Shown: positions 10,449-30,999 of the stretch, in pieces
Numbering within the stretch: the first letter of the stretch is position 1
Layout of the letters: each line of letters opens with the position of its first letter
DNA from: a virus
Virus record (IMG/VR): IMGVR_UViG_3300031825_000399
Span: 1 to 36,764 of that record
Length of the DNA stretch: 36,764 bases
Direction: 5' to 3' (one strand)
Notes under the pieces: model-generated
Databases searched by the model: none
What the model saw: only the letters and a program-made list of their open reading frames with translations
Told to the model about the DNA's origin: nothing
Program-made: the position numbers and the translations under genes

Positions 10449-10751
10449 ATGTCCGACACCAGCATCCACACCGACGTGGTGGTGGAGGGGGACTGGGCCA
10501 CCGTCACCGTCCTCCACCCGGCCGATCTGCCCGACGTCGCCGCCCGACTCCTCACCGCCTCCGACACCAGCGGCGGGGTCACCACCATCACCGGTGCCGC
10601 GATCGGGTTCCGCGCCCCGCTGGAGGTGGTCCGCGCTGCCGGCCTCGACACCGACGAGCCGGAGAAGCCGCGCAAGCGCAGCACCCGCAAGGCGGCACCC
10701 GCCACTTCTACCGTCACCCCCGACACCACCAGTGAGGAGACCCACCGATGA
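10449..10751 (+). CDS. Small protein with basic tail between capsid and major tail genes
   Basis: A 100-residue protein. The N-terminal two thirds look alpha/beta (VVVEGDWATVTVLHPADLPD). The last 30 residues are Lys/Arg/Thr/Pro-rich and disordered, with EKPRKRSTRKAAP. AGGAG is placed well before ATG 10449. Its stop overlaps the major tail gene start (ATGA). The location suggests a head or head-tail structural role, perhaps with the basic tail touching DNA. I do not recognise the family. Confidence 0.5.
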   Translation: MSDTSIHTDVVVEGDWATVTVLHPADLPDVAARLLTASDTSGGVTTITGAAIGFRAPLEVVRAAGLDTDEPEKPRKRSTRKAAPATSTVTPDTTSEETHR

Positions 10752-11788
10752 CCGCATGGAACGTCGTCAAGGGAAAGCGACTGCGGGCCACGCGCACCGA
10801 CGCGTGCGGGCTCCCACTCGCCGGCCCCAAAGCCCAGCTCGTGACCAAGGGCTTCGTCACCGTCAACCTCGAACCCGAATGGGAAGACGCCGAGGACCTG
10901 ACCCAGAAGAACGCCGACGGTGAGATCGTCATCTCCGACCGCACCCCGCCGGAGATGAAGTGGATCAACACCTCCATCGAGTTCTGCAACGTCGACCCCG
11001 AGCTGATCAACATGCTCACCGACTACCCGCTCGTCCTGGACTGGGCGAACCTGCCCGTCGGTTACCGCATCACCGACAAGGTGAAGGTCGACGGCGCTGT
11101 CGCGCTCGAACTGTGGGCCGGCACCGCCGGTTCCGACTGCGAGGTCCCCACCTCCGACGACATCTTCGACAACGCCGGCAACCTCACCAGCTACGGGTAC
11201 TTCCTGCTGCCCGCGGTCAAGGAAGCCACCCTGTCGGAGATCGAGATCGGCGCCAGCGTCGCCACCTTCACCCTCGAAGGCATCGCCGTGCAGGGACCGC
11301 GGTGGGGCAAGGGCCCGTACAACGTCGTCCCGGTCGACGCCTCGAACACCCCGGGCCGCCTGCTGGTCCCGATCGGCACGAAGCAGTTCCTGCACAAGCA
11401 GCTCACCACCGTCGCGCCGCCGGCGGTGACCGAGGGTGCGGTGACGCTGACGCTGCCGTCGCCGTACTTCACCGCCCCCACGGACGAAGTCCAGATCGTG
11501 ACGATGTCCGGTGCGACCGGTGGCACGTTCACGCTGACGTTCGACGGGCAGACCACCGCGGGAATCGCGTACAACGCGGCCGCGTCGGCGGTGCAGTCCG
11601 CGCTCGAGGCGCTGTCGAACATCGGGGCCGGCGACGTCACGGTCACCGGCACGGCAGGTGGCCCGTACACGGTCACCTTCGCCGGCGCGCTGGCGGACAT
11701 GAACGTGCCGCAGATGACCGCCAGCGGGGCGTCCCTCACGGGCACCAGCCCGACGGTCACCGTCACGACCAGCACGCAGGGCGGATAG
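10748..11788 (+). CDS. Major tail protein with C-terminal Ig-like domain
   Basis: The 346-residue tube subunit of the siphovirus tail. The N-terminal 230 residues show the actinophage major-tail pattern: RATRTDACGLPLAGPK, VTKGFVTVNL, ELWAGTAGSDC and SYGYFLLPAVKEATL. Residues about 235-346 form an Ig-like beta domain (GGTFTLTFDGQTTAGIAYNA, AVQSALEAL, GDVTVTGTAGGPYTVTF) often appended to tail or capsid proteins, where it decorates the surface and may bind glycans. It starts at an ATGA overlap with the preceding gene. Its position upstream of the head-tail connector genes is unusual. Confidence 0.88.
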   Translation: MTAWNVVKGKRLRATRTDACGLPLAGPKAQLVTKGFVTVNLEPEWEDAEDLTQKNADGEIVISDRTPPEMKWINTSIEFCNVDPELINMLTDYPLVLDWANLPVGYRITDKVKVDGAVALELWAGTAGSDCEVPTSDDIFDNAGNLTSYGYFLLPAVKEATLSEIEIGASVATFTLEGIAVQGPRWGKGPYNVVPVDASNTPGRLLVPIGTKQFLHKQLTTVAPPAVTEGAVTLTLPSPYFTAPTDEVQIVTMSGATGGTFTLTFDGQTTAGIAYNAAASAVQSALEALSNIGAGDVTVTGTAGGPYTVTFAGALADMNVPQMTASGASLTGTSPTVTVTTSTQGG

Positions 11789-11855: not shown

Positions 11856-14087
11856 ATGGCGGATCCGGTGTACGGGGAGTTCGTCACGCTCCGCGGTCTG
11901 ATCTCGCTCGCGGGTTTGCAGCGCGGGCAGCTGAAGACGGTGGTGTGGAACAAGCAGAACGAGCAGCTGGTCGCGCTCGGCTACGCGGAGATCTACACCG
12001 GCACGGGTGCGCCGCCGCCGGCGTTGGATCCGTACGCGACGCGTGAGTGGGTGCAGTCGCAGCTCTCGGACGTCGAGGTGTCGGATGCGGATCTCGCGGC
12101 GACGGTGGCGGCCGCGTCGGCGACACGCACCGCGGTGGACGCCCGGGTGCGTGCGGTCGGAGATGCCACTTATGCCCCCCTCGGAGTGGCTGGCGGGAGT
12201 GCGATCAACCGCGTGGTGATCATTGGTCCTTCCCTCGAGGAACAGATCGGACAGGGTGCGTCGACCGTAGATCCGTCGTTCGCCACCCCGGCGCAGTCGG
12301 CGATGCGGGCCCGCGGCTGGTTCCACTGGTGCAACGCCGCCCTCGGCAACGCCCTGCACCTCGACTACAACGCCGGTGTCGGCGGCAACCGCTACGACCA
12401 GATGCTCGCCCGATTCGATGCCGACGTGATCGCCCACAACCCGCGGTTCGTGTTCATCGGCTCCGCGACCAACGACATTGGCGGCGGCCGCACCGTAGCG
12501 CAGATCACCGCCGACCTCGACGCGATGATCGACAAATGCCGGGCGAGCGGCGCGCAGGTGATCGTGATGACCATCCCGCCCCGCTCAACACACAACACCG
12601 TGTCGATGCGGGCGAAGGTCGCCGAGATCAACCGCTACATCTCTGCGCTGGCCGGTGTGCGCGACGGGGTGATCGCGGTCGACCTGTGGCGTCCGCTGGC
12701 CGACCCAGCAACCGGATACCCCGTGCCCGGCACCACCGCCGATGGCACCCACTACTCGGTCTCCGGGGCGGCGATCCTCGGATTCCACGTCGCCGAGAAG
12801 ATCCGTCACCTGGTGACCGTGCGCCCCAGGCTGGTGTCGTACTCAACCGATCCCCGCAGGTTCATCGCCAACCCGGCGATGCTCGCCAACGGCACCGGCT
12901 GGACCGCCACCACAGGCGCGACCGCCGCCTTCGTGGCCGGCGACTACGGCAACACCGCGACGATCACCGTCACCGGCAACAGCTCCCTCACTGCGGTGCG
13001 CGGCATCGTCGCCGAGTCGGTCCGCGCGGACGGCTACTGGGAGCCGGGCGACACGCTACAAACGACGTGCCGGCTGCGCTGGTCCGACCTGGTCGCCCTA
13101 ACCGGGGAGACCCCGTGCGCCCCGGTGCTGCGGATCGAACAGCAGAACGCCGGCGGCACTGTCCTGAAAACAGCGCACGCCCTGTACTCGACGAGCATCG
13201 AGTGGGCGACATGGCCTACTGGAAACACCGTGCCGCTGCCCACCCCGAAATCCGGGGACGTCGTGCTCACCACATGGCTTTCCACCGTGCACGTGGACTG
13301 CGCGAAGATCCGGCTGATCGTCGGCTGGCTGGGCGCCGCATCGGTCACCGTGAAGATCGATGACATGGCCCCGGTCAAGGATGCGGCAGCCACGGCAGAC
13401 CATCCGTCGCCCGACCCGTACGTGCGCCAGGACCCCGGCGTCACCGGATACTCGAGTCGCTGGGTGGCAGCCGAACTGACCGGCGCGGACGGCACCGCGG
13501 TCGCATCCTGGACGGACACCGACACCCAGATTGCACTGACGCAGCCCACCGGCACCAAGCAGCCGACATTGCAGACCGTGGGCGGAGTGAAGGTCGTCCG
13601 GTTCGACGGTGTCGACGACGAACTGCGCAACACCGCCCTCACGGCGTACAACTCGATCGCGATTGTGTTCCGCATGGCGGATACAGCACCCACGGACACG
13701 TCGCCCGGCCTGTTCTCTTCGGCGGACGCGATGGGCGTGGCGCGTGGCACGAGCGCATCGCAATACCGTACGAACGTGTTCTTCGCCGGCACCGGACGTT
13801 CGGTGTCGCCGGGCACGGTCACGGCCCCGAACGGCGTCGGCCGATTCCTGGTGCTCCGCAACAACGACGGAGACGCCCGGATGGAGGTCAACGGTGTCGC
13901 GGTCACGAACACCACCGCGGCCACCGCGACGACTGTGACGTCGCTGCTGCTCGGTCAGCGCAACAACTCCTTCGGCAACATCGAGATCGTAGAGGTCATG
14001 GTGTTCCCGACCGGTCTGACCGACGCGCAGATGGCGACGCTGTACACGTACGCGAAGTCCCAGTACCCGGCGCTGTTCCCAGCGTGA
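11856..14087 (+). CDS. Virion SGNH esterase with lectin-like domains (tail fibre or decoration protein)
   Basis: 743 residues. Residues about 10-46 (LRGLISLAGLQRG and following) match the N-terminus of the fibre gene at 29743, so this is probably a virion docking module. Residues about 115-320 form an SGNH/GDSL hydrolase: nucleophile block VVIIGPSLEEQ (S126), block II glycine in NAGVGGNRYD, block III SATND (N206) and block V DGTHYS (D296, H299). The usual Asp before the serine is replaced by Pro. About 325-505 looks like a carbohydrate-binding beta domain, and about 525-743 like a LamG/concanavalin fold (VVRFDGVDDELRNTAL, IEIVEVMVFPTGLTDAQ). The likely role is de-O-acylation of a surface glycan during adsorption. 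AGGGGAGGA precedes the ATG. Confidence 0.8.
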   Translation: MADPVYGEFVTLRGLISLAGLQRGQLKTVVWNKQNEQLVALGYAEIYTGTGAPPPALDPYATREWVQSQLSDVEVSDADLAATVAAASATRTAVDARVRAVGDATYAPLGVAGGSAINRVVIIGPSLEEQIGQGASTVDPSFATPAQSAMRARGWFHWCNAALGNALHLDYNAGVGGNRYDQMLARFDADVIAHNPRFVFIGSATNDIGGGRTVAQITADLDAMIDKCRASGAQVIVMTIPPRSTHNTVSMRAKVAEINRYISALAGVRDGVIAVDLWRPLADPATGYPVPGTTADGTHYSVSGAAILGFHVAEKIRHLVTVRPRLVSYSTDPRRFIANPAMLANGTGWTATTGATAAFVAGDYGNTATITVTGNSSLTAVRGIVAESVRADGYWEPGDTLQTTCRLRWSDLVALTGETPCAPVLRIEQQNAGGTVLKTAHALYSTSIEWATWPTGNTVPLPTPKSGDVVLTTWLSTVHVDCAKIRLIVGWLGAASVTVKIDDMAPVKDAAATADHPSPDPYVRQDPGVTGYSSRWVAAELTGADGTAVASWTDTDTQIALTQPTGTKQPTLQTVGGVKVVRFDGVDDELRNTALTAYNSIAIVFRMADTAPTDTSPGLFSSADAMGVARGTSASQYRTNVFFAGTGRSVSPGTVTAPNGVGRFLVLRNNDGDARMEVNGVAVTNTTAATATTVTSLLLGQRNNSFGNIEIVEVMVFPTGLTDAQMATLYTYAKSQYPALFPA

Positions 14088-14092
14088 CCAAT

Positions 14093-14134
14093 CAATATTG
14101 CCCCCACCCGCGGACGCGGGTGGGGGCAATATTG
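14093..14134. terminator. 42-base perfect palindrome, bidirectional terminator
   Basis: Two 20-base arms (14093-14112 and 14115-14134) flank a two-base centre. The tips CAATATTG are AT-rich and the core is C5/G5-rich, so either strand ends in a short U-containing tract. It lies between convergent genes: the esterase stop is five bases to the left and the ligase-like stop six bases to the right. Confidence 0.85.
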
Positions 14135-14140
14135 CTGCTT

Positions 14141-15433
14141 CTACACGCGGGCGGGCTCACGCTCGTCGGGTTGTTCCTCCGCGTCCCGTGATCGTGACGT
14201 CGCCTCCGACGCGACTGCTCCCATCATGAAGAACAGCAGGACCTGCCACTGCGTAATGGGCGAGGTGACGAGTAAGACCGGGATCTGACCGGCGAGTGCC
14301 ACGGACGCTGGCCCGGCGGTCCGCTTGAGGCAGCGAAGGGATGCGATCAACACCGGCGCGAGGAGCAGCGCGGCGGCGATGATCCCGAAGTTGACGGCGA
14401 AGCGCAGCGGGGTGCTGTCGATGATCTGCACACCGTTGACCACCGGGCTCGCTTCCTGCCCGACGAATGTCAGCGCGGAAGACATCCAATGCAGGCTGTC
14501 GCGCACAAGCCCGTACTGATCGAGACGGGCGTTGCCGGAGCCGGCGACCTCTCCCGAGTAGACACCGGAGTACAGACCGGACATGACTGCATAGACCGCG
14601 CCGCCAACGACGACGGCGAGCGCGGTGTACCGCAGTCGAGTCTTGCCGTCCGAGGAGAACACCCACGCGGTGAGGACGAGGGTGAAGGCGAGGGCCAGCA
14701 TAGGTCCGCGGCTCAGGGATACAAGGATGCCGGCAGCGAGCAACGCCTGGACGAGGACGACGTGCTTTCGGAGCTGGTGGGCGAATGGAATCGCCATCGC
14801 GAGAGCCGCCCCGTAGGCGATGCCGTGTCCGAAGGTGGCTTCCGAACGGGATACCCCGGCGCGTTCCTGGATCAGGTTCAAGGTGTGGTTCGCTGACGGC
14901 ATCCACTCGGTGAACAGATGCATCCCGAAGAAGAACTCGATGACTCCCCATGCGGCAACAACGGCCATGATGATCACATAGGCCCTGGTCACCTTGACAG
15001 TGACGTTGCGCCCGAGCAGATAACCGAGCACCCAGAGGACGAGCAGGTCGCGTACGAAGACGATGCCGCGTAGTTCGCCGGTGAAGGACAGGAACAGCAC
15101 CATCAAGGTGGCGAGTCCGATTGCGATGTCCATGCGGTTGATTCGGATCGGCTCGGGCCCGAACACGCGCGACAATCCGATGCCCAGCAGGATCGGTGCA
15201 CCGAGTACCGCAGGTGGAAAGCCGATGCCGCCGACGTAGAAGGTGGTCCAGGAGGGAACGAACACCACGGTCAACAACCACAGGATCAGCGCCAGCTCGG
15301 GCTTCTTGTAGGCGAGCACGAGAATGCCCAGCGTGAGGATGCACGCGATGATGGCGAGCCCGTAGGTCGGGGTCAGGAATCCGATGATCAATGCTGTAGC
15401 GACGAGTGCCGCCCAGCTGAGGGCCTGCTTCAT
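14141..15433 (-). CDS. O-antigen ligase/polymerase-like membrane protein (Wzy/WaaL type)
   Basis: 430 residues with about ten to twelve hydrophobic segments, starting MKQALSWAALVATALIIGFL. A larger loop near 170-215 holds RSEATFGHGIAYG, and another near 275-330 holds YSGVYSGEVAGSGNARLDQYG, the arrangement of the Wzy_C/O-antigen ligase superfamily that joins or polymerises surface polysaccharide outside the membrane. The tail is charged and cytosolic (RSRDAEEQPDEREP). AAGGGA lies upstream of the ATG. It is the second gene of a minus-strand pair with the acyltransferase, 47 bases apart. Base composition is visibly less GC-extreme than the structural genes, suggesting transfer from a bacterial glycan locus. 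Confidence 0.78.
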   Translation of the reverse strand: MKQALSWAALVATALIIGFLTPTYGLAIIACILTLGILVLAYKKPELALILWLLTVVFVPSWTTFYVGGIGFPPAVLGAPILLGIGLSRVFGPEPIRINRMDIAIGLATLMVLFLSFTGELRGIVFVRDLLVLWVLGYLLGRNVTVKVTRAYVIIMAVVAAWGVIEFFFGMHLFTEWMPSANHTLNLIQERAGVSRSEATFGHGIAYGAALAMAIPFAHQLRKHVVLVQALLAAGILVSLSRGPMLALAFTLVLTAWVFSSDGKTRLRYTALAVVVGGAVYAVMSGLYSGVYSGEVAGSGNARLDQYGLVRDSLHWMSSALTFVGQEASPVVNGVQIIDSTPLRFAVNFGIIAAALLLAPVLIASLRCLKRTAGPASVALAGQIPVLLVTSPITQWQVLLFFMMGAVASEATSRSRDAEEQPDEREPARV

Positions 15434-15480
15434 TGTTTCCCTTCGTGTGGCTGTGCGCCGATGAGTCGGGGCTGGGTGCG

Positions 15481-16533
15481 CTACAGCGCGGCGGCTGGCA
15501 TCTTGGCCGGTACCGGGTCGAGGCGGGACCGCAGTCGCATCGCGGGTTTCTCGATCGCGAACCAGCTGGCCGCCGCTGCAAGCAAGGTTGGGACAGCAGC
15601 CAAGACAGCGAACGTCAAGGGGGATATGGCACCGAATTTGATGTAGAGCAACTGCTGGAACGGGAAGGCGTAGATGTACACGCCGTAGGAGATGTCGTTC
15701 TTCAGGACCAGGCGTTCACGTTGGATCAGTGCTCCGGTGGTGATAACGACGTACGCCCAGAACACCGCGCCCAGGAGCCGGTAGTCCGGCAGGAACATCG
15801 TGGCCGCGGTGACGATGAAGGCCGCTGCAGTGAGAGGCCAGGAGCAACGGATCGAGCCTTGGAACTGGTAGATCAGGGCGCCGGCGAGGAACATTATCGA
15901 GAACCGCGCGGCCGCCGCGGGGTGCCCACCGATGTCCGCGAGGGCCGTAACTGCGAGTAGTGCCCAGGAGGCAGCGAAGGCGATCGGCAGAGTCCAGCGG
16001 CGCTTGAGCAGGCCGGTGACCCCGAGTGCAAGCACGCCGAGGTAGCAGAGGACTTCCCAGCTGAGTGTCCACAGTGACCCGTTCCAGGTGCCGGGGTAGG
16101 GAACGCCGGTCGGAGTGCCGCCGACTCCGCGTTCGAAGATCCAGACCGCTGAGTTCGACAGCACGTACTTGATCGGTGCCGTGGAAAACAGGAGTCCGCG
16201 GCCGTCGCCTCCCTGCATCGCCACGCCGACGGGAGCGACGACGAAGCCGACGATGAGCAGACAGGCCCAGAAGGCTGGAAGGATCCGCAGCGCGCGAGCG
16301 ACGAGATAACCGCGGACCTGGGGGCGTCGCATCCAGCTCGCAGTGATCAGGAACCCGGAGATCGCGAAGAACCCGTCGACCCAGACTTCGGCAACGAACT
16401 GTCGCAACGGATGGAATGCGATGTCGCGTCCGGTGAGCGGGAACGAATGCCACACGATAACCCCGAGGGCCATGGCGAGACGTATCGCGTTGAGCGCATT
16501 GAGGCGCGGGTCGAAGCGCTGCTGCAGCGTCAA
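15481..16533 (-). CDS. OafA/YrhL-type membrane acyltransferase (acyltransferase 3)
   Basis: 350 residues and about ten membrane segments. The first helix carries NAIRLAMALGVIVWHSFPLTG with the conserved His of the family. VDGFFAISGFLITASWMRR and YLVARALRILPAFW follow, and the SLWTLSWEVLCYLG loop is also diagnostic. Such enzymes transfer acetyl or other acyl groups to surface glycans. The start is a TTG at 16533 with a GGGGGGG Shine-Dalgarno tract about four bases upstream. No better ATG exists in the N-terminal helix. It is first in the pair with the ligase-like gene. The context suggests alteration of the host receptor. Confidence 0.85.
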   Translation of the reverse strand: MTLQQRFDPRLNALNAIRLAMALGVIVWHSFPLTGRDIAFHPLRQFVAEVWVDGFFAISGFLITASWMRRPQVRGYLVARALRILPAFWACLLIVGFVVAPVGVAMQGGDGRGLLFSTAPIKYVLSNSAVWIFERGVGGTPTGVPYPGTWNGSLWTLSWEVLCYLGVLALGVTGLLKRRWTLPIAFAASWALLAVTALADIGGHPAAAARFSIMFLAGALIYQFQGSIRCSWPLTAAAFIVTAATMFLPDYRLLGAVFWAYVVITTGALIQRERLVLKNDISYGVYIYAFPFQQLLYIKFGAISPLTFAVLAAVPTLLAAAASWFAIEKPAMRLRSRLDPVPAKMPAAAL

Positions 16534-16670
16534 GATTCCCCCCCGGGAATAGTTGCCTGAACTAAGTCATCTTGCACTATGGCAACCGGTTCAGCATGTT
16601 ACCGGTGGGTCAAGCTGTGCCGTCGCAATCGGTGGACGCCGTTGCCCGTCTTCTGGCCGGTCACCAGGTT

Positions 16671-16711
16671 GGATCCGGGTTGTTCCGCGAATGACGGAAC
16701 AACCCGGATCC
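16671..16711 (-). terminator. Strong hairpin terminator
   Basis: A perfect 17-base inverted repeat (16671-16687 against 16695-16711, arm starting GGATCCGGGTTG) with a seven-base loop. It lies 18 bases past the stop of the minus-strand gene at 16729-17487 and upstream of the acyltransferase gene, so it should insulate the two minus-strand units. Confidence 0.8.
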
Positions 16712-16728
16712 GAACGCGGCAAGGCCGC

Positions 16729-17487
16729 TTACTCCGATGGCGGCGGCCCGGTGTCAGGAGGCGCGCCATTGGGCACAACGGGCGCATGCTTTACGAGCGA
16801 TGTCACATTGCTGGTGTCGCGGCTCCATCGGTTCCCCAGGTAGTCCGTGAAGTAGACGATCGCAGGCGGTGGCGTGTTGGAGTCGATCTTGTCGACCCAT
16901 ACGTAGAACTGTTGGCTCCAGGTACTCGACTGGCTCACCCGCAACTCGGAGCATCTGGCCAATCGAGACATCGGCCGGTTGCCGGCGATGTCATCGACAA
17001 TGGGATAGCGGACGTAGATTTCTAGGTTGGAAATCGTGCCGCCAGTGTGATTGGTGATGGTACAGCTGACGTCCCGGTGATGATCTCCGGATAGGAGGCC
17101 GACCCAGGCAGATTCGATAGCGACCCCTATTGCATGCTCGCGTGCGAGCTGTTGCGCAGCGGCCAGTTCCTGGGCTTCGTCAAGTTTCCTCTCGGCTTCC
17201 TTGCGCGCTTGGACTTCCTTGTCGCGGTCCGCCCGTGCCTGTCGAGCCGTGATCACGGCCACGATTAGCGTTGCGGCCGCGACTATTGCGGATAGGGCAC
17301 TGATGATGATCGTCGGCCAACTGGGGCCGTTCGTGAGGTAGACCTGAACGGTCTCCTGTTGTGCGTGGAGTGATATCACCGAGACAGTTTGCGGGAGGAG
17401 CCGATCTTGGTAGTCAGCGGTCAGGTATTTCCCCAGATTGAGGGTCGGGCCGTCACGTAATTCCTCACTACCGGCCGATGGCACCAC
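16729..17487 (-). CDS. Single-span membrane protein with coiled coil
   Basis: 252 residues. After about 55 N-terminal residues there is one membrane helix (TIIISALSAIVAAATLIVAVI). A charged coiled coil of about 35 residues follows (ARADRDKEVQARKEAERKLDEA), then a C-terminal beta-rich domain of about 110 residues with NHTGGTISNLEIYVRYP and a Pro-rich tail. The topology suggests a membrane-anchored cytosolic sensor or effector, but no family is recognised. The GTG start at 17487 has no clear Shine-Dalgarno sequence, so the true start could be further in. Codon use is less GC-rich than the phage structural genes. It is followed by the 16671 terminator. Confidence 0.6.
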   Translation of the reverse strand: MVPSAGSEELRDGPTLNLGKYLTADYQDRLLPQTVSVISLHAQQETVQVYLTNGPSWPTIIISALSAIVAAATLIVAVITARQARADRDKEVQARKEAERKLDEAQELAAAQQLAREHAIGVAIESAWVGLLSGDHHRDVSCTITNHTGGTISNLEIYVRYPIVDDIAGNRPMSRLARCSELRVSQSSTWSQQFYVWVDKIDSNTPPPAIVYFTDYLGNRWSRDTSNVTSLVKHAPVVPNGAPPDTGPPPSE

Positions 17488-17976
17488 CCGGTGAGGACCG
17501 ATGAGAAACCCCGCCGGAGAGAGCTTGGGGGCAACTCCGGCGGGGCTTCGGCCGCCGGGCAGGGGGGTGCCGACGACTGTGAGGAATCCTACGGCTCCGA
17601 CGCTCGAGCTGTGAAGTATCCGCCGGCGAAGTGCTCACCACCGGCCATATGCAAACCGCATGCATATCCGTCGCATACCGACACCTACCGCTACAAGGCA
17701 ACGGCCCCGCCGGTGATCTCTGTGAAGAGCCGACCGACGGGGCCGGGCCGCCGGACGGGGGAGAACGACGGCCAAGATCAACTTTAGGCGGACAGCAATC
17801 GAGCTGTAGATCTCCCGCCCGTGATCGCTCACTACCGGCCGCTGCCTCCGTCAGCGAAACTTGACGAAAGTGTCGGAAAGTCGCTGACGCAGTGACGTGC
17901 CGTCTGCATCGCTCACCACCGAGACCTCGACGCGGGGGAAGAGTAATCATGGCAAGGCATTGTCGGAATCCACCGA
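17488..17976. promoter_or_regulatory. Non-coding regulatory region between divergent cargo genes
   Basis: About 490 bases without a credible gene, separating the divergent genes 16729-17487 (minus) and 17990-18403 (plus). It contains hairpins at 17509-17545 (11 perfect base pairs) and 17702-17745 (13 base pairs, one mismatch), and a nine-base inverted repeat at 17849-17857/17881-17889. Copies of GCTCACYACCGGCC occur at 17633-17646 and 17827-17840, with variants at 17463-17477 and 17911-17922. Operators or attenuators are plausible. I cannot identify a regulator in the window. Confidence 0.45.
17509..17545. terminator. Hairpin upstream of minus-strand membrane protein gene
   Basis: A perfect 11-base inverted repeat (CCCCGCCGGAG at 17509-17519 against 17535-17545), 15-base loop. 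It lies 22 bases upstream of the GTG at 17487, so it may act as an attenuator for leftward transcription rather than as a gene-end terminator. Confidence 0.45.
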
Positions 17977-17989
17977 TACCCTTCCGCCC
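17977..17989 (+). promoter_or_regulatory. Leaderless-type -10 element for the 17990 gene
   Basis: TACCCT at 17977-17982 fits the actinobacterial TANNNT -10 box, and seven bases separate it from the ATG at 17990. The CACC element of the phage-type promoters is missing, so this may be read by a host sigma factor. Confidence 0.5.
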
Positions 17990-18403
17990 ATGAGGATCGC
18001 GGTCTATGTGCTTCATACCCTGGCGCTCATCCTGCAACTTGCCGGTGCGGTTTTGGTTGTCCTTGACGTAAGGCAGTCCCAGCGCAACACGGCAGCGTTC
18101 AAGAACAGACTGGACGAAGCGGAAGAGATGAAACAGAACCACATCCAACTGCTGGCGGCCCAGAGCAGGCGGTCTATCCCTGGTCCGATAGGCGGCAGGA
18201 TCAACCTGCCGACGATTCCTGTCCAGGCCCACGGGCTTCTCGCCGACCAGCTTGGCCCGAGCGGCGCAGCCGAACGCAAAGCTCTCACTCAGTTCGTGCA
18301 GGATCAGTTCGCTATCAGTAAGCGACGTCGTTGGTCCGGCGTAGGGCTCCTGTTCGCGGGCGCGATCATTGGATACACAGCCAACATGCTCTCGGTTTCG
18401 TAG
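17990..18403 (+). CDS. Two-span small membrane protein of cargo island
   Basis: 137 residues. The first helix, YVLHTLALILQLAGAVLVVLD, begins at residue 6. A charged, partly coiled cytosolic region follows (SQRNTAAFKNRLDEAEEMKQ), then a second helix near the C-terminus (VGLLFAGAIIGYTANML). Short two-span proteins on prophages are often exclusion or defence factors, but no specific family is seen. An upstream in-frame ATG at 17897 exists. The start at 17990 is preferred because it lies seven bases after TACCCT and the upstream stretch looks non-coding. A hairpin follows the gene. Confidence 0.6.
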   Translation: MRIAVYVLHTLALILQLAGAVLVVLDVRQSQRNTAAFKNRLDEAEEMKQNHIQLLAAQSRRSIPGPIGGRINLPTIPVQAHGLLADQLGPSGAAERKALTQFVQDQFAISKRRRWSGVGLLFAGAIIGYTANMLSVS

Positions 18404-18449
18404 CAGCCGAGCACCACCTATAGGTCGAAGATCAATACCCTGCGCCGGG

Positions 18450-18467
18450 GCGCGTGAGCACACGCGC
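18450..18467 (+). terminator. Short hairpin after the 17990 gene
   Basis: A perfect seven-base inverted repeat (GCGCGTG/CACGCGC) with a four-base loop, 47 bases past the stop and 21 bases before the next -10 element. The short stem makes this a moderate call. Confidence 0.5.
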
Positions 18468-18487
18468 TGCATGCCAGGTTTGTCCGC

Positions 18488-18500
18488 TACGGTGTCGCTC
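18488..18500 (+). promoter_or_regulatory. Leaderless-type -10 element for the 18501 gene
   Basis: TACGGT at 18488-18493 is the same hexamer as in the phage-type promoters, and seven bases separate it from ATG 18501. The CACC element 13 bases upstream of the hexamer is absent. Confidence 0.5.
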
Positions 18501-18977
18501 ATGACGACGGAAGACACGACAACAGCGCAGGCCCACACCGGCTCCGGCACCCCGCCCGAATTGATGCAAACTGCCGATTGGTTCACAGCACCTGACTACA
18601 CACTTCAACGAATCACTAATCTCGTTGATCGCGCTGGTCACGACTTGATGACGGTCAAGTTGCTGGTTCCTGGCGCCACGATTACCGGCACTGTCGCTCC
18701 AGCTGACAGCTTCTATGATTGGGTGGTCGAGCAGCAGACCAAGGGCACCGCAGAGTTCGATGATGGCGTCAGCGAGGAGACCGAACAGGTGCTGGACTTC
18801 CTTTTCGGCCAGCCAGCTGCCGAACTCAGAGCATTCCGGGAAGCCGACGAGCCGAGCCCTCCGGAGTTGGTTCGCTACATCCACCTTCGCGACGCGCAGG
18901 TCCGGATTGGCCAATCGCTCACCGACGTGGGATTCATCCGCGTCCTGCTCTCTCAAGTCAGCTCCTGGACAATTTAG
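18501..18977 (+). CDS. Hypothetical cytosolic protein of cargo island
   Basis: 158 residues, acidic, without membrane segments. A core TNLVDRAGHDLMTVKLLVPG followed by ATITGTVAPADSFYDWVVEQ suggests a small beta domain and faintly recalls GvpU-like proteins, a weak resemblance I would not use for naming. The C-terminal third is helical and acidic (EETEQVLDFLFGQPAAELRAF). The start at 18501 is preferred over upstream in-frame ATGs because it sits seven bases after TACGGT and the upstream stretch overlaps a hairpin. It has its own promoter and a terminator behind it, typical of an independently expressed cargo gene. Confidence 0.6.
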   Translation: MTTEDTTTAQAHTGSGTPPELMQTADWFTAPDYTLQRITNLVDRAGHDLMTVKLLVPGATITGTVAPADSFYDWVVEQQTKGTAEFDDGVSEETEQVLDFLFGQPAAELRAFREADEPSPPELVRYIHLRDAQVRIGQSLTDVGFIRVLLSQVSSWTI

Positions 18978-19004
18978 CCCCCGCCTAATCGGCACGACGT
19001 TGTC

Positions 19005-19043
19005 GCCGCGCTCGGACGGTCCAGCCATCGCTCCGAGCGCGGC
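19005..19043 (+). terminator. Terminator closing the cargo island
   Basis: A 12-base perfect inverted repeat (GCCGCGCTCGGA at 19005-19016 against 19032-19043) with a 15-base loop, located 27 bases after the last cargo gene and about 60 bases before the promoter of the connector operon. Confidence 0.65.
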
Positions 19044-19104
19044 CATTGCGTCGGCGTGGTCTTCTTACAAGGGGTGCGAGTAGATGTAGCGCAGTCGTTT
19101 GAGT

Positions 19105-19130: not shown

Positions 19131-19175
19131 ATGATCCAGGTGGCAAGGCATTCGGGGGTGCACCGTGACGTGTGA
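19131..19175 (+). CDS. Possible 14-residue leader peptide
   Basis: The frame MIQVARHSGVHRDV starts exactly where a leaderless transcript from the upstream promoter would begin. It ends inside the beginning of the adaptor gene (GTG 19165, other frame). It may couple or damp translation of the adaptor. Alternatively this ATG is unused and the adaptor is read from its own GGGGG Shine-Dalgarno sequence. Confidence 0.3.
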   Translation: MIQVARHSGVHRDV

Positions 19176-19944
19176 CTGGCCGGTCGACCGCACCTGCCTT
19201 CCGACCATCGCGGCCCTGCCCGACACGCCGACGCCGGAGCAGGTCGCCCAGTTCGAGGCAGACCACCTGCGGATGCAGGCCGCGGTCGACTCCGCCGTGA
19301 CCGTGCTGTGGGCACTGACCGGCCGGCGCTTCGGTGTCTGCCCCGTCGTCGCCCGCCCCTGCCCACGCCGACCGGATCCGATCACCGGGTACTGGACACC
19401 CGGGATCGGGTTCATGCCCATCCTCGACGCCGGCGTGTGGCGCAACGTCGCCCTCACCGCCGGCACCTGCGACCCGTACGGGCCGAACGTCATCGACCTC
19501 CCCGGCCCCGTCCAGGAGATCACTACCGTCACCGTCGACGGTGTCGTCATCGCCCCGGATTCGTACGAGCTGCACGGCGACCGGTTGTACCGCGCGGGCG
19601 GCGAGCCGTGGCCGGGCCAGGATCTGTCGCTGCCACCCGGTGCCGCGGGGACCTGGTCGGCGGAATACTTGCGCGGCACCCCACCCCCGGCCGGGGCTGC
19701 GCACGCCGTCGGGCAGCTCGCGGTCGAGTTCTGGAACGCCTGCTCGGGTGGCAAGTGTCAACTGCCGCGGCGCGTCACCTCTATCAGCCGGCAGGGCGTG
19801 ACCGTGCAGAAGGTCGACCCCACCGATCTGATCTCCGCCGGGCAGACCGGCATCCCCGAGGTCGATCTGTGGGTGTACGCCCTGAACCCGAACAAGCTCG
19901 CCGCGCCGCCGCGGGTCATCTCTCCGGATGCGAGGCCGCGATGA
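19165..19944 (+). CDS. Head-to-tail adaptor
   Basis: 259 residues, predicted to dock below the portal. The N-terminal helical region EQVAQFEADHLRMQAAVDSA plus VLWALTGRRFGVC is the typical start of gp6/gp15-like adaptors of actinophages. The middle is beta-rich (VQEITTVTVDGVVIAPDSYELHG), and the C-terminal helix region contains GQLAVEFWNACSGGKCQLPRRV. The only usable start is GTG 19165, since an in-frame TGA lies just upstream; GGGGG lies six bases before it. It overlaps the next gene by four bases (ATGA). Confidence 0.75.
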   Translation: MTCDWPVDRTCLPTIAALPDTPTPEQVAQFEADHLRMQAAVDSAVTVLWALTGRRFGVCPVVARPCPRRPDPITGYWTPGIGFMPILDAGVWRNVALTAGTCDPYGPNVIDLPGPVQEITTVTVDGVVIAPDSYELHGDRLYRAGGEPWPGQDLSLPPGAAGTWSAEYLRGTPPPAGAAHAVGQLAVEFWNACSGGKCQLPRRVTSISRQGVTVQKVDPTDLISAGQTGIPEVDLWVYALNPNKLAAPPRVISPDARPR

Positions 19945-22319: not shown

Positions 22320-25319
22320 ATGACGACCGTCGGCGAAGCGAAACTCAAACTCTCTGCTGACGGTTCGTCCCTGCCCGCCGAGGTGCGGGCCGCGGTCGCC
22401 GCCGCGATGCGCGGCATCAACGAGACCCTCAAGGTCGAGGTCGACGCCGACGTCACGCCGTTCGAATCGAAGATGGCGACGGTGCTGCGGCCCCGCGAGG
22501 TCGACGTCGATGTGGACGTCAACCGCACCGCGTTCGACAGCTTCCTGCGCGACATGGACCGCGCCGACAAGGACTTCGTCGTCCGCGTCGCGCTGCTCGG
22601 CGACACCAACGTCGGTGACCGATTCTCCGACCAGACCATCGGGGTCCGCCTCGATATCCAGAACGCGGGCGCGTTCAACACCCAGATGGCCACCCTCACC
22701 CGGCCGCGGCAGGTGGACATCAGCATGAACGTCGACCAGTCCCAGCTCGGGGCGTTGGCCGCGGTGCAGAACCGCACCGTCGACATCCGCGCCAACCTCA
22801 CCAACGCAGGGCAGGTCGAGGCACAACTCGCCTATTTGACCAGGCCGCGGTCGGTGAACATCGGCGTCAACGTCAACCACTCACAGCTGCAGATGCTCAC
22901 CCAGATGCTGAATTCGCTGACCAACCTCGGCGGGTCCCTCGGTGGCGGTGCGCTGTCCTCTGTCGGGTCGATGCTCGGCGGCATCGTCTCCGCCGCAACC
23001 TCCGCCGTCGGGGCGATCGCGATGGTCACGACTGCGGCATCCGCGGCGGCGGTCGCCGCCGGCGCCATTCCCATCGCGCTCACGGGTGCGCTCGGTGCCG
23101 TGTCAGCAGCGGCAGGCGCGATGGCGGCCGGCGTCACCGGCGGCATGGCAGCGGTGATGGCTTCGCTGTCCGTGATGTGGAACCCCGATCTCAAGGCCAA
23201 GATGGACTCGGCCTTCGAGGGCATCAAGGGCCACATGAAGGAGATCGCCAACCGGCTCGCCCCCGCGATGACCAGAATGTTCGATGCGCTGCACCCGGCA
23301 TTCGATCGATTGGCCCCCTCACTCGAGCGGATCACCGACGGCGTGTCCGGTCTGATCGACCATCTGACCGTCAAGCTCCCGGAGATCGCGGATCAGCTCG
23401 GCCCTGCGCTGGAGAAGGCGTTCCAGGCCGGGGTTCCGCACCTGAAGAACCTGATCGACAACCTGCCGCGACTGACCGAGGCATTCGGCAACTTCATGTC
23501 GAAGTTCGGCGACCCGGCCGTGGTCGAAGCCGCGAACCGGGTCTGGCAGAAGCTACCCGGCATCCTCGAAAGCATCGGCGAAGCCATCCCCGCCGTCGCG
23601 CAGGGCTTCTCGGACCTGATGGGCTGGATCGACGCCGGCAACCTCGACCCGTTCATCCAAGGGTTCAAAGACCTGTGGGCGGAGCTGTCCTCGGCGGACT
23701 GGTCCGGAACCATCGACTCGATCGCCAACCTCGCCAACACATGGGGCGAGTTCATGTCCAGCATCGACGGACAGTCCGTCGCCGACGGCATCACCGCGGT
23801 CGCGACCGCGTTCGACGCTGTCCTCAACGCGGGCATGGCCGTGAAGAACACCCTGGACGGGATCTGGGACGTCATCTCCCCGAAGAACGTCATGGGCGAG
23901 ATGCGCGAGATGGCGCACGCCATCCTCGGCATGCTCAAGGACACGTTCGGGAATCTGCCGTTCATCGGTGATGACATCTCCAAGGCCATCGACGGGGCCC
24001 TGCAGAAGCTCGGGCCGGTGAAGTTCAAGGCCACCCCGGAACTCGACAAGGTCGGTGTCGAGAAGCTCGAATCCATGCCGGGCCCGAAGATCAAGGTGGA
24101 CGTCGAGCCGCAGTGGCATGGACTGACCACGAACAAGCCGCCGAAGGTCAAGGTGGACATCGAGACCGACAACCGCAAGATCCCGGTCGAGGTCGACGTC
24201 AAACCGTTCAAACTCGATATCCCGCCCAAGGCCAAGGTGATGGTCGACGTCGAGGCCACCCCCTTCAAACTCGACATCCCGCCGAAGACGAAGGTGATGG
24301 TCGACGTCGAGCAGACCGCCGGGTTCAAGCTCGACGTGCCGCCGAAGGTGAAGGTGATGGTCGAGCCGGACGGCTCCGGGTTCTTCAACTTCGCGCCGCC
24401 GCAACCGCCGCCGGTGAAAGTGAAGGTCCTCGCCGACACGGCCGGGCTCTCCGCCGACATCGATTCGAAGACCAAGGTCATGAAGACCGTGACGATCCCG
24501 ATCGCCTACGGCCCGCTGCCCGCCGCGCCGCCGATCCCGACTCCGCCGACGGTGCCGGTTCCGCTGCAGTTCCAGGTGCCGCCGATGCCGGCGATCCCCT
24601 CGCCACCACCGGTGCAGGTCCAGGTCCACACCAACGCCGACGAGGTCGCCGGGAAGATCAACAGCATCCCGGGGTCGAAGGTCACCACCCACACCGTGTC
24701 GTCGAACGTGGGCGCGGTGATCGGGCAGATCGCGTCGATGCAGTCCGGCACCAGCTCGTTCCATTCGGTGTCGTCGAACGCAGGGGCGGTGGCGGCGCAG
24801 ATCTCCTCGCTCAACGGCCGCAACACGAGCTCGACCCACACCATCCGGGTCGTCGAGACCGGCAGCGGTAAGCGGATGGAGGACGGCGGGTTCAACTTCC
24901 GCTCCTACGCCGCCGGGGGGATCACGGCGCTGGAGAAGTACGCGAACGGCAAGCTGCCGTCGGCGGCGACGATCATGCGGCCACGGCGCCGGCTGATCCA
25001 GTGGGCAGAACCCTCGACGAAGGGAGAGGCGTTCATCCCGCTGGCCCGCTCCAAGCGCGCCAGGTCGCTGGACATCTGGGAGCAGACCGGCCAGATGCTC
25101 GGGGCGTGGGATCAGGTGTACGCGTCGATGGCGGCGCGCGCTGCGGGGGCGCCGTCGCTGGCACCCTACGCGATGGCGGCGGCCGGACTGGGCAACGCAG
25201 GAGGAGTCGGAACCAACCGGACCGAGGTGCACGCGCCGATCACGATCCAGGCAGCGCCACAGCCGGCGACCACGGGGTGGGCAGTGCAGTCCGCGCTGAC
25301 CTCCCGGCTGAGAGGGTAG
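22320..25319 (+). CDS. Tape measure protein
   Basis: 999 residues, setting tail length (roughly 150 nm by the usual 1.5 Angstrom per residue rule). The N-terminal quarter holds repeated short units such as TRPRQVDISMNV and TRPRSVNIGVNV. A hydrophobic Ala/Gly-rich stretch (about 205-285) can span membranes. Helical segments follow to about 560. Lys/Pro/Val repeats (FKLDIPPKxKVMVDVE, three copies) and two related VSSNxGAV units come before a C-terminal DGGFNFRSYAAGGI and GEAFIPLARSKR. No lytic domain is evident. It is translated from a leaderless ATG directly behind a terminator. Confidence 0.93.
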   Translation: MTTVGEAKLKLSADGSSLPAEVRAAVAAAMRGINETLKVEVDADVTPFESKMATVLRPREVDVDVDVNRTAFDSFLRDMDRADKDFVVRVALLGDTNVGDRFSDQTIGVRLDIQNAGAFNTQMATLTRPRQVDISMNVDQSQLGALAAVQNRTVDIRANLTNAGQVEAQLAYLTRPRSVNIGVNVNHSQLQMLTQMLNSLTNLGGSLGGGALSSVGSMLGGIVSAATSAVGAIAMVTTAASAAAVAAGAIPIALTGALGAVSAAAGAMAAGVTGGMAAVMASLSVMWNPDLKAKMDSAFEGIKGHMKEIANRLAPAMTRMFDALHPAFDRLAPSLERITDGVSGLIDHLTVKLPEIADQLGPALEKAFQAGVPHLKNLIDNLPRLTEAFGNFMSKFGDPAVVEAANRVWQKLPGILESIGEAIPAVAQGFSDLMGWIDAGNLDPFIQGFKDLWAELSSADWSGTIDSIANLANTWGEFMSSIDGQSVADGITAVATAFDAVLNAGMAVKNTLDGIWDVISPKNVMGEMREMAHAILGMLKDTFGNLPFIGDDISKAIDGALQKLGPVKFKATPELDKVGVEKLESMPGPKIKVDVEPQWHGLTTNKPPKVKVDIETDNRKIPVEVDVKPFKLDIPPKAKVMVDVEATPFKLDIPPKTKVMVDVEQTAGFKLDVPPKVKVMVEPDGSGFFNFAPPQPPPVKVKVLADTAGLSADIDSKTKVMKTVTIPIAYGPLPAAPPIPTPPTVPVPLQFQVPPMPAIPSPPPVQVQVHTNADEVAGKINSIPGSKVTTHTVSSNVGAVIGQIASMQSGTSSFHSVSSNAGAVAAQISSLNGRNTSSTHTIRVVETGSGKRMEDGGFNFRSYAAGGITALEKYANGKLPSAATIMRPRRRLIQWAEPSTKGEAFIPLARSKRARSLDIWEQTGQMLGAWDQVYASMAARAAGAPSLAPYAMAAAGLGNAGGVGTNRTEVHAPITIQAAPQPATTGWAVQSALTSRLRG
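24204..24378 (+). repeat. In-frame tandem repeat in tape measure gene
   Basis: Three units start at 24204, 24261 and 24321 (19- and 20-codon periods), each encoding xFKLDIPPKxKVMVDVE or a close variant. The first two differ at only a few third positions, suggesting recent unit duplication, which would change tail length in whole-unit steps. Confidence 0.75.
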
Positions 25320-28429: not shown

Positions 28430-28438
28430 TCGGTGCGG

Positions 28439-28465
28439 CACCGGGGGTGCGTACGGTGCGCAGCC
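28439..28465 (+). promoter_or_regulatory. CACC-N9-TACSGT promoter, copy 7
   Basis: CACC at 28439-28442 and TACGGT at 28452-28457, with the 13-base offset and eight bases to ATG 28466. It follows the preceding gene by only ten bases, so the site was kept in a very compact gap. The gap contains no Shine-Dalgarno sequence. Confidence 0.65.
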
Positions 28466-29104
28466 ATGGTGAATGTGTGCACCTCAGAACAGTTCACCGA
28501 GGACGGCGGCATCCTCGGGCTGTCACCGTTCGCGTTCGCAGCGCCGGTCGCGCAGGCGACCGCGACGTCGACCGGAGACGGCACGATCACCGCCCACCCC
28601 GGCGCCGGCGGCCGCGCCCTGATCGACGCATCGCTGCACTGGGCCAACACCTATCCGTGCCCGGTGCGGGTGCAGGCGATCCTCCGGAAGCAGCGACGAG
28701 CACTGTCGGCGACAGCCTCGAACATCGTGGTGGTGCGGGACCGGGCGACCACCCTGGTCAGGACCGACGCGCCCGGAGTGCCGATCGCCGCGGTGGACCC
28801 CGATCCGACAGCAGTGTTCGACTCGGAGTGGGGTGGCGGCAACATCGTCGGTGCAGCCGCGACCGGTGACGCGACACCCCGGGTGGAAGTCAACAGGTTC
28901 GCCCCGCAGCAAACCGTGCTCCTGCCGATGGTGTCCGTCGGGGCGGGCGAGTCGATTTCGGTTCGCTTCAAAGCGCGGATGTACATGCCCTATGGTGCCG
29001 GGGCCACTGGCACCTTCCATCCGTCGACCGACGCGAACGACGTCAACAGCATCGCGGTGCTCGGGACGAGCATCGAGTTCGTGGCATACCCAACTGCCCT
29101 GTAG
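28466..29104 (+). CDS. Minor tail protein, first of a paralogous pair
   Basis: 212 residues, beta-rich, with no membrane segment. Shared with the next gene are SLHWANTYPCPVRVQ (near 56-70), DPDPTAVFDSEWGGG (near 111-125) and a following G-x-A-x-PR. It probably forms part of a baseplate or fibre attachment. ATG 28466 is chosen because it follows TACGGT by eight bases; upstream in-frame starts would overlap the promoter. I recognise the pair as recurrent in Rhodococcus/Gordonia phages but know of no biochemical function. Confidence 0.65.
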   Translation: MVNVCTSEQFTEDGGILGLSPFAFAAPVAQATATSTGDGTITAHPGAGGRALIDASLHWANTYPCPVRVQAILRKQRRALSATASNIVVVRDRATTLVRTDAPGVPIAAVDPDPTAVFDSEWGGGNIVGAAATGDATPRVEVNRFAPQQTVLLPMVSVGAGESISVRFKARMYMPYGAGATGTFHPSTDANDVNSIAVLGTSIEFVAYPTAL

Positions 29105-29319
29105 CGAGAGTGGGAGGCAGTCGTGGCGATGATCTGCAGTAGCCGTCAGTTCACTCACAGCGCGGCGGGGGTGATGGGCCTGTCGACGCACGCGTTGCCG
29201 CGGCAGGTGGCGGTGGTCCAGTCCGACTCCGGTGGCGACGGTGAACTGAAGTACCCCGACGACCAGGGCCGGGTCCTGGTAGACCAGGAGCTGCACTGGG
29301 CCAACACCTATCCGTGCCC
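28634..29319 (+). repeat. Direct DNA repeat between the paralogous tail genes
   Basis: A 29-base identical stretch starts at 28634 and again at 29291 (CTGCACTGGGCCAACACC and following). A second near-identical block starts at 28796 and 29450. The offset is 657 and 654 bases, consistent with duplication followed by a one-codon indel. Confidence 0.75.
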
Positions 29320-29746
29320 AGTACGGGTGCTGCCGGTCATCAAGCGACGATCCAGGTTGCTGCACACCACAGGATCGGTGCTGCTCGTGGTCCGTGAGCG
29401 CTTGACATGGTTCGTCGGCCAGGACCGGGAGCAACGGGTGCAGGCTGCTGACCCGGATCCGACGGCGGTGTTCGACTCCGAATGGGGTGGCGGTGACACC
29501 GTCGGGTCGGCGACGAACGGATCGGCGGTGCCGCGGACGTATTCGTGGATGCTCGACCCGGAGACGGTGCATCTGCTGCCGTTCGTCACGGTGCCACAGG
29601 ATCGGTCCATCTCCCTGCGGCTCCGGGTGGCGGCGTGGTTCCGCCACTACGTGGCAGACAACGCCGAAGCCGACATCAACGAGGTATGGGTGCGCGGGAA
29701 CACCCTGTCCCTCCTGGCGTTCCCCACCCCGGAGGAGATGACGTGA
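29123..29746 (+). CDS. Minor tail protein, second of a paralogous pair
   Basis: 207 residues. It aligns along its whole length with the preceding gene, including ELHWANTYPCPVRVL and DPDPTAVFDSEWGGG, but with a different N-terminal strand (STHALPRQVAVVQSD) and a C-terminus ending FPTPEEMT. GTG 29123 has GGGAGG about five bases upstream; ATG 29129 is an alternative. A four-base GTGA overlap links it to the fibre gene. Divergence concentrated away from the shared motifs suggests subunits with distinct partners. Confidence 0.65.
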   Translation: MAMICSSRQFTHSAAGVMGLSTHALPRQVAVVQSDSGGDGELKYPDDQGRVLVDQELHWANTYPCPVRVLPVIKRRSRLLHTTGSVLLVVRERLTWFVGQDREQRVQAADPDPTAVFDSEWGGGDTVGSATNGSAVPRTYSWMLDPETVHLLPFVTVPQDRSISLRLRVAAWFRHYVADNAEADINEVWVRGNTLSLLAFPTPEEMT

Positions 29747-30999
29747 GTGCACCTATCGGCGGCACCCCGGTGAAGGTGCGGGGCCTGATCTCGCTGGCCT
29801 GGTTGCAGCGTGGCGACACGACCACCATTGTGTGGGACGCCACGGCTGTCGAGCTGGTCAACGCCGGCTACCTGGAAATCCTCGAAGTCCTTCCCGTCGA
29901 TCCGGGAGAACCCGCCCCGACTGTCGCGCAGTTGCAGGCCGCGGTAGTCGCGGCCGAGCAGGCCCGCGACGAGGCGGTAGCGGCTCGGGATCAGGTCGTC
30001 GTGGACCAGACGGCGCTCGCCGATGCCGTCGCCGACGCGGAGGGCGCGCGGGACGCGGCGCTCGGCCACGCCGGGACCGCGCAGACCGCGGCGGGTGAGG
30101 CGCAGGCGTGGGCGGCGGCAGCCGAAGCTGTCGTCATCGACCAGATCCCGAATGCCTCGGCGTCGACGAAGGGCGGCATCCGCCTGACCGGGGACCTCGG
30201 CGGCACGTGGGACGTGCCCACCGTCCCGGGCCTGACGGGGAAACAATCCATTTCCGACCGCAATCAGCCGAACGGCTATGCCGGGCTGGACGGGTCCGGG
30301 CTGGTGCCGGCGGTGCTGTTGCCGTCGTACGTCGACGACGTCCTCGAGTACGCCAACCTCGTCGGATTCCCGGCAACGGGCAGCGTGGGCAAGATCTATG
30401 TCGCATTGGACACCGGCCGCATCTACCGGTGGTCCGGTTCCGCGTACGTCGAGATCAGTGCCTCCCCGGGCTCGACCGATGCCGTGCCAGAAGGGGCGAC
30501 GAACAAGTACTTCACCGATGCGCGCGCCCAGGCTGCCGCCGCGGCGGCGATCGCCGCGAAGTACACCAAACCCGCCAGCGGCATCCCCGCAGCGGATCTG
30601 GCCGCGGCGGTGCAGACCTCGCTCGGCAAGGCGGACACCGCGATCCAGCCGGGCAGCCAGCCGTTCGATGTGACGTTCGTGGCGCAGTCCGGTACCCGCA
30701 AGACCGGCGCCGGCGACGTGCCGCTCGGGGTCAAGCTCAAGCGGGCGGTGGCCTTTTCGGAGGTGACGTTCCGTTGTGAGACGGCCGACGGCTCCGGCAA
30801 CCTCGTTGTCGAGGTCCGCAAGAACGGCTCCGCCACCGGCATGCCGACCGCGACGATCGCCGCCGCCAGCCAGGTCGCCGGCGTCACCGTCACCGGGCCG
30901 TGGTCCTTCGCCGACGGTGACGTCCTCACCGTGCACGTCACCGCAGTCGGCACCACACCGGGCAAGGGACTGGTCGCGGACTTCGAAGGGGTGACGTGA
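29743..30999 (+). CDS. Tail fibre-like protein with shared N-terminal docking module
   Basis: 418 residues. Residues about 10-47 (VKVRGLISLAWLQRG and following) match the N-terminus of the SGNH esterase gene at 11856. A long alpha-helical stalk follows (QLQAAVVAAEQARDEAVAAR, about 65-140). Next come IPNASASTKGGIRLTGDLGG, typical fibre repeat motifs such as GKIYVALDTGRIYRW, and VPEGATNKYFTDARAQA, a motif widespread in tail fibres. The C-terminal 90 residues are a beta domain (LVVEVRKNGSATGM). GTG 29743 overlaps the preceding stop. A receptor-binding or adaptor fibre is likely. Confidence 0.75.
   Translation: MSAPIGGTPVKVRGLISLAWLQRGDTTTIVWDATAVELVNAGYLEILEVLPVDPGEPAPTVAQLQAAVVAAEQARDEAVAARDQVVVDQTALADAVADAEGARDAALGHAGTAQTAAGEAQAWAAAAEAVVIDQIPNASASTKGGIRLTGDLGGTWDVPTVPGLTGKQSISDRNQPNGYAGLDGSGLVPAVLLPSYVDDVLEYANLVGFPATGSVGKIYVALDTGRIYRWSGSAYVEISASPGSTDAVPEGATNKYFTDARAQAAAAAAIAAKYTKPASGIPAADLAAAVQTSLGKADTAIQPGSQPFDVTFVAQSGTRKTGAGDVPLGVKLKRAVAFSEVTFRCETADGSGNLVVEVRKNGSATGMPTATIAAASQVAGVTVTGPWSFADGDVLTVHVTAVGTTPGKGLVADFEGVT

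Follow-up and report, generated by a model that had tools for sequence, protein, structure and literature searches.

The subject of this work is a locus at positions 11856-16533 of a 36,764-nucleotide stretch of viral DNA (IMG/VR record IMGVR_UViG_3300031825_000399, positions 1 to 36,764; hereafter the window), in which the gene for a tail fibre with a predicted SGNH esterase domain meets, tail-to-tail, a minus-strand pair of genes for a putative AT3 O-acyltransferase and a Wzy-like membrane protein. We consider it probable, with considerable reserve, that this locus represents a cassette for lysogenic (serotype) conversion, as known from the phages D3 and Sf6, genetically coupled to the receptor-binding enzyme of a temperate phage whose host is a Gordonia-like soil bacterium.

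The fibre and the convergent AT3-Wzy unit

In agreement with an earlier note made from the letters of this DNA, all three open reading frames (ORFs) are present, the esterase gene converging on the minus-strand pair, and each exhibits a bias of G+C content at third codon positions (GC3) of the coding type. The locus and the protein that shares its anchor motif are as follows (aa, amino acids):

11856..14087, plus strand: fibre, very probably of the virion, with an SGNH esterase domain, 743 aa
14093..14134: perfect 20-bp inverted repeat in the gap between the fibre gene and the Wzy-like gene (repeat search; fold -39 kcal/mol, z -7.5)
14141..15433, minus strand: Wzy/O-antigen-ligase-like polytopic membrane protein (weakly recognized), 430 aa
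15481..16533, minus strand: predicted AT3 O-acyltransferase, 350 aa, unfused
16534..16670, minus strand: AT3-Wzy leader, in which a G-rich ribosome-binding site directly precedes the TTG start
16671..16711: perfect 17-bp inverted repeat upstream of the AT3 gene (repeat search; z -8.6)
29545..30999, plus strand: minor tail protein with the same anchor motif as the esterase fibre (phrog_2952 minor tail protein, 6e-45)

The fibre comprises a tail anchor (aa 1-107), an SGNH core (~aa 118-310) and a beta-rich C-terminal part (aa 320-743). It matches PF13472 (Lipase_GDSL_2) at 1e-20 over aa 150-306 and PHROG lipase/esterase families at 2.6e-35 and 3.3e-27, and it possesses the conserved blocks and the Ser, Asn and Asp/His catalytic residues typical of SGNH enzymes, with Ser126, Asn206, Asp296 and His299 invariant in the alignment of four phage homologues. 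The AlphaFold2 (AF2) model is confident over the SGNH core only and shows, at low confidence, a helical stalk after the anchor. A Foldseek search with the model of the core reported SGNH/GDSL esterases from the PDB (best 8.5e-10) as well as many phage esterases; the matches include the carbohydrate O-acetylesterases 6njc, 6hfz, 7ddy and 7toh, which indicate the fold only. Thus, the SGNH domain proposed in the earlier note is well recognized, while the lectin-like domains proposed with it are hinted at by a match to phrog_4390 (E=0.004) and could not be confirmed in the model, which is usable for the SGNH core only.

Residues 4-46 of the fibre share 53% identity with residues 70-112 of the minor tail protein of the same phage, and the fibre gene lies directly 3' of the major tail protein gene. 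Because of this common anchor motif and this position, the location in the virion tail, likewise suggested in the earlier note, is well supported and very probable; the N-terminal 108 aa found no match in the phage collection, and the link to the virion comes from the match within the phage itself. From aa 85 on, the SGNH and C-terminal parts of the fibre are 52% identical to DobbysSock gp27, a protein of a Gordonia phage whose gene is situated where the tail/lysis genes end. Since gp27 has a different N-terminus, the enzymatic part appears to be grafted onto different anchors. Also unlike the window phage, DobbysSock contains neither AT3 nor Wzy_C.

The fibre could instead be a lipase-like enzyme that attacks lipid esters of the mycolate-rich outer layer and is unrelated to the product of AT3. 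SGNH enzymes are indeed promiscuous, the PHROG families carry the label lipase/esterase, and the surface of Mycobacteriales is rich in acyl lipids. We nonetheless find this explanation very unlikely, as the protein is built like a fibre, its distal part differs between sister phages (see below), as would be expected of a receptor-specific part, and the carbohydrate O-acetylesterases among the fold matches (evidence on the fold only) point the other way.

The AT3 protein matches PF01757 at 9.5e-21, over profile positions 2-323 of 326, i.e. along the whole protein. Its alignment contains R18-X10-H29, FFAISG and R80-x-x-R83, which correspond to the R/K-X10-H, FFXISG and RXXR motifs that are conserved or essential in OafA-family enzymes (PMC7448272). 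The earlier note had described the enzyme as OafA-type; since it consists of the AT3 domain only, with no SGNH domain fused at the C-terminus, it is better described, on its domain composition, as Oac/Atf-like. The SGNH protein was also considered as the missing transferase partner of AT3, by analogy with the fused OafA; we rejected this candidate, whose 743 aa form a tail-anchored fibre and a close relative of which occurs without any AT3. The nearest AT3s of phages are Atf-like genes of Mycobacterium abscessus prophages (~49% identity), and the prophiGD17-2 gene is among the phage matches. MAB_1725c O-acetylates the surface glycopeptidolipid, and for the atf gene of prophiGD17-2, expression in the lysogen and a partial restoration of acetylation were reported (PMC10400925).

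The 430-aa product of the second minus-strand gene contains many hydrophobic segments and is weakly recognized, through PF04932 (Wzy_C), as a Wzy-like or WaaL-like protein, being compatible with either. Among phages it matched a protein of a single unannotated gut phage; the comparison with plasmids yielded no match and the scans of genome contigs no relatives.

Consensus scans for promoters and terminators yielded nothing beyond chance, and both hairpins were found by the repeat search and folding. As the 14093-14134 repeat has no U-tract and no consensus promoter was found in 16534-16670, we infer termination at the former, where a bidirectional terminator is probable, and a promoter of the AT3-Wzy unit, which is expected in the latter. 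The 16671-16711 repeat is probably the terminator of the upstream gene and would set the AT3-Wzy unit apart. The GC content drops from ~0.70 to 0.60-0.64 over 14-19 kb. Given the strong bounding hairpins and the low GC content, the AT3-Wzy unit looks like a moron, i.e. an autonomous unit, inserted in reverse within the late genes of a temperate phage; its site in the late operon lies between the genes for the major tail protein and the head-tail adaptor.

A swapped block and AT3 loci in other viruses

A 95%-identical sister phage (record UViG_2634166395; G002, L010) matches the window at 92-96% on both sides of a single differing block:

12178..19103: distal half of the fibre and the whole cassette (comparison of the two sequences)

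Identity ends at 12178, inside the esterase gene (residue ~108), and returns at 19103, shortly ahead of the head-tail adaptor. The fibre of the sister phage retains the anchor and continues with another SGNH domain (PF13472, 5.5e-9) that has few identities past the anchor, while the AT3/Wzy site is occupied by a gene without identified function and a SocA/PemK toxin-antitoxin pair. This comparison supports, for one phage pair, an exchange of the fibre enzyme and the cassette together. The shared 0.3-kb segment 17506-17817 hints at an island composed of two sub-blocks. The toxin-antitoxin pair, at L010:14653-15648, is composed of a SocA-like antitoxin (PF13274) and a PemK/MazF toxin (PF02452), and a plus-strand gene of 211 aa (L010:11811-12446) follows the alternative SGNH fibre at the position of Wzy and AT3.

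The earlier note had proposed that the three genes are exchanged as a unit and co-vary. The single block bears out the exchange for this pair; as a rule it fails, as does strict co-variation. DobbysSock, Makai, the sister phage and G003 encode the esterase but no AT3, and most phages with AT3 have no SGNH gene, the M. abscessus prophage included. Because related phages carry these genes independently, an outcome that the note itself had named as refuting, the strong form of its claim is weakened.

The AT3 alignment brought up 80 viral loci, and 49 AT3-bearing records were searched in full for SGNH, with a match in seven. In five of these (the window phage, Magia, G039, G010 and G042) the SGNH gene is nearby and convergent with AT3; Magia and G039 look related, which leaves ~4 independent cases. 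The SGNH protein of Magia carries the annotation outer-membrane lipid esterase and is not necessarily a virion component. G010 encodes homologues of both the AT3 (38%) and the esterase (30%) of the window, the SGNH gene being located among tail genes, and in G042 the SGNH protein belongs to a PHROG of tail proteins and adjoins two AT3 genes. Wzy_C was found near AT3 in three records (the window phage, G009 and G012), accompanied in each by a tail gene.

As convergent AT3-SGNH pairs recur, the esterase may act on precisely the acyl group that AT3 transfers. In its strict form, put forward in the earlier note, AT3 adds an acyl group in the lysogen and the SGNH fibre of the virion removes that very group at infection. 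The five convergent records, and G010 with homologues of both proteins in particular, are in line with this scheme, as is the interplay of acetylation and deacetylation proposed for Klebsiella prophages, the SGNH fibres of which are active esterases (PMC13123978). We regard the strict form as unlikely, however, given the esterases without AT3 and the AT3s without SGNH listed above and an internal tension: a virion that erases the mark could undo the exclusion of its siblings.

A convergent downstream neighbour was found in 29 of 35 AT3 clusters, the background being 26% of the gene ends in these loci (p ~5e-12; the gene calls are heuristic and the clusters lack phylogenetic correction). Among the 20 convergent neighbours tested, 12 are tail, virion or SGNH proteins and two more have a tail fibre as the next gene; the others comprise a DNA helicase and unassigned proteins. 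An insertion that follows a tail gene in reverse orientation necessarily converges on it, and hence it is the frequent presence of a receptor-binding gene as the neighbour that is the non-trivial part. The end of the tail operon is a common site of lysogenic-conversion genes, which may explain part of the pairing; the site in the window, however, is an internal one of the late operon.

The same data bear on the view that fibre and cassette are independent neighbours, the AT3-Wzy unit being a generic fitness or surface moron and variable islands gathering beside fast-swapping fibre genes. This would agree with the geometry of insertion just mentioned, with the unrelated content of the site in the sister phage and with the M. 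abscessus prophage, in which AT3 is near the repressor and integrase and far from the tail genes. We consider it rather unlikely, since a tail receptor-binding gene recurs as the convergent neighbour across distant AT3s, and also in Sf6 and D3.

A parallel case is provided by Gordonia phage Doggs (L003:11977-15258), in which an AT3 gene, annotated as a hypothetical protein, overlaps by ~50 bp, tail-to-tail, a gene for a weakly pectin-lyase-like tailspike. The tailspike shows no homology to the window esterase, and Doggs was therefore rejected as an instance of a shared module and is regarded as a parallel architecture.

Known conversion loci and the proposed mechanism

The window has the gene arrangement of the D3/Sf6 loci, i.e. 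AT3 (with Wzy) adjoining a tail receptor-binding gene in a temperate phage. In Shigella phage Sf6, the gene for a receptor-binding enzyme is likewise followed by a terminator and a convergent AT3 gene, oac (PF01757, 1.3e-26), which has its own promoter; unlike in the window, the tailspike is an endorhamnosidase, there is no Wzy, the locus adjoins the integrase and the host is Gram-negative with an O antigen. In Pseudomonas phage D3 a tail protein gene is followed by iap, the AT3 acetylase and wzy-beta, which provides the combination of O-acetylase and polymerase seen in the window, while AT3 and Wzy are encoded on opposite strands, the AT3 frame is much longer, an Iap inhibitor is present, and the locus adjoins attP and acts on the O antigen of P. 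aeruginosa. The M. abscessus MabA prophage Atf (MAB_1725c, prophiGD17-2) shares with the window the related AT3 and a temperate actinophage setting; it differs in the position of AT3, in having no SGNH fibre, and in that no Wzy_C was found in its record (W02).

According to the available text of PMC13228068, a Wzy encoded by Acinetobacter baumannii prophages near a tailspike depolymerase alters the capsule, and exclusion of close relatives has been proposed; in contrast to the window, the enzyme is a depolymerase and not an esterase, the target is a Gram-negative capsule and that text describes no AT3 beside wzy. For the enzymatic side, the SGNH tail fibres of Klebsiella prophages and gp63.1 of coliphage G7C are described as active receptor-binding esterases, unlike the window with no linked AT3-Wzy unit reported in the part of the source at hand (PMC13123978). 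The locus thus joins known elements, with an actinobacterial phage as the setting, an esterase as the fibre and a site inside the late operon.

On this basis, we propose the following course of events. The virion fibre would bind to a glycan or glycolipid of the cell surface and, judging from homology and the catalytic residues, strip acyl groups at adsorption by means of its SGNH domain. In the lysogen, the hairpin-isolated minus-strand AT3-Wzy unit would be expressed on its own; AT3 may O-acylate a surface glycan, in keeping with its ~49% identical relatives that are proven O-acetyltransferases, and the Wzy-like protein may re-link or extend it. On the precedent of Sf6 and D3, the changed surface would be unusable by the original fibre and relatives would be excluded. 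Finally, the enzymatic half of the fibre and the cassette would tend to swap in one recombination block, as seen in one phage pair, presumably because the new surface is matched to the specificity of the fibre. The earlier suggestion that the prophage alters the receptor is thereby strengthened by the kinship of AT3 with proven glycolipid acetylases and by the D3/Sf6 architecture, the change of the lysogen glycan itself being a proposal.

Several observations weigh against the conversion cassette. To our knowledge, Mycobacteriales have no lipopolysaccharide O antigen. Neither AT3 nor Wzy_C was found in the whole record of the sister phage, which lives without them, and the cassette is thus dispensable. 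The Wzy_C match is weak (9e-6, 26 bits) and below the curated cut-off of 31.7, so that the Wzy/WaaL-like assignment of the earlier note is a tentative one; this score is not disqualifying, because Wzy-beta of D3, at 25.4 bits, is also below the cut-off of PF04932. The AF2 model of the Wzy-like protein is poor (mean pLDDT, predicted local distance difference test, 44.8) and was not used. Lastly, no Iap-like polymerase inhibitor was recognized, no search aimed at short ORFs having been made; iap of D3 measures 96 bp (~31 aa), and an aimed search for such a peptide would be swamped by chance short ORFs.

More speculatively, and with the balance tilted against it, receptor-binding enzymes and convergent AT3s, with or without Wzy, may form in many temperate phages a co-evolving exchange module that is swapped at conserved flanks. 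If so, the fibre would set what is infected and AT3/Wzy would hide the lysogen from the fibre; the window phage, with its esterase fibre, AT3 and Wzy, would be the Mycobacteriales case, and a polymerised, acylated surface glycan would be implied as a receptor in hosts of this order. Little is known about the receptors of phages of Gordonia and mycobacteria, and a glycan-directed tail enzyme next to probable surface-rewriting enzymes points to a class of receptor. Should the pairing of AT3 with receptor-binding genes prove general, an AT3 neighbour could be used to flag receptor-binding proteins and to predict patterns of superinfection from sequence.

The phage, its probable host and other features of the window

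The window is a part of a temperate actinophage with a GC content of ~68%. Another IMG/VR record, IMGVR_UViG_2856983180 (UViG_2856983180_000001), matches it at 99.99-100% and contains an extra 20 kb with a tyrosine integrase, DnaB- and AAA-type replication genes and a helix-turn-helix regulator. The capsid protein and the integrase are closest to those of phages of Gordonia, Rhodococcus and Mycobacterium, which makes Gordonia or a relative the probable host; scans of genome contigs with the major tail protein revealed no relatives. The late genes include the large terminase, portal, head and capsid genes (to 9610), as well as minor tail proteins and an endolysin. Further features are:

10748-11788: major tail protein
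16729..17487, minus strand (as the cassette): 252-aa protein with one transmembrane segment and no convincing family
17506..17817: hairpin-rich intergenic segment (folds; patches of 86-90% identity with the sister phage in an otherwise different island)
19165-19944: head-tail adaptor
22320-25319: tape measure

PADLOC detected no known defence system in the island. Two plus-strand island genes at 17897-18977 encode proteins of 168 aa (with hydrophobic segments) and 202 aa with no convincing family, and are absent from the sister phage. Mobile elements were encountered outside the island: the G001 record contains, at L017:3516-4849, upstream of the terminase, an IS3-family insertion (rve integrase core) with no counterpart at the corresponding position in the sister phage, and pieces of an IS4/5-type transposase (DUF4096) are present at L017:1093-1940, just past base 1 of the window, in a 2.8-kb stretch that is not common to the sister phage. 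Two adjacent genes at 28433-29746 of the window both match phrog_282 (4e-21 and 1e-17) and are probably the result of a tandem duplication.

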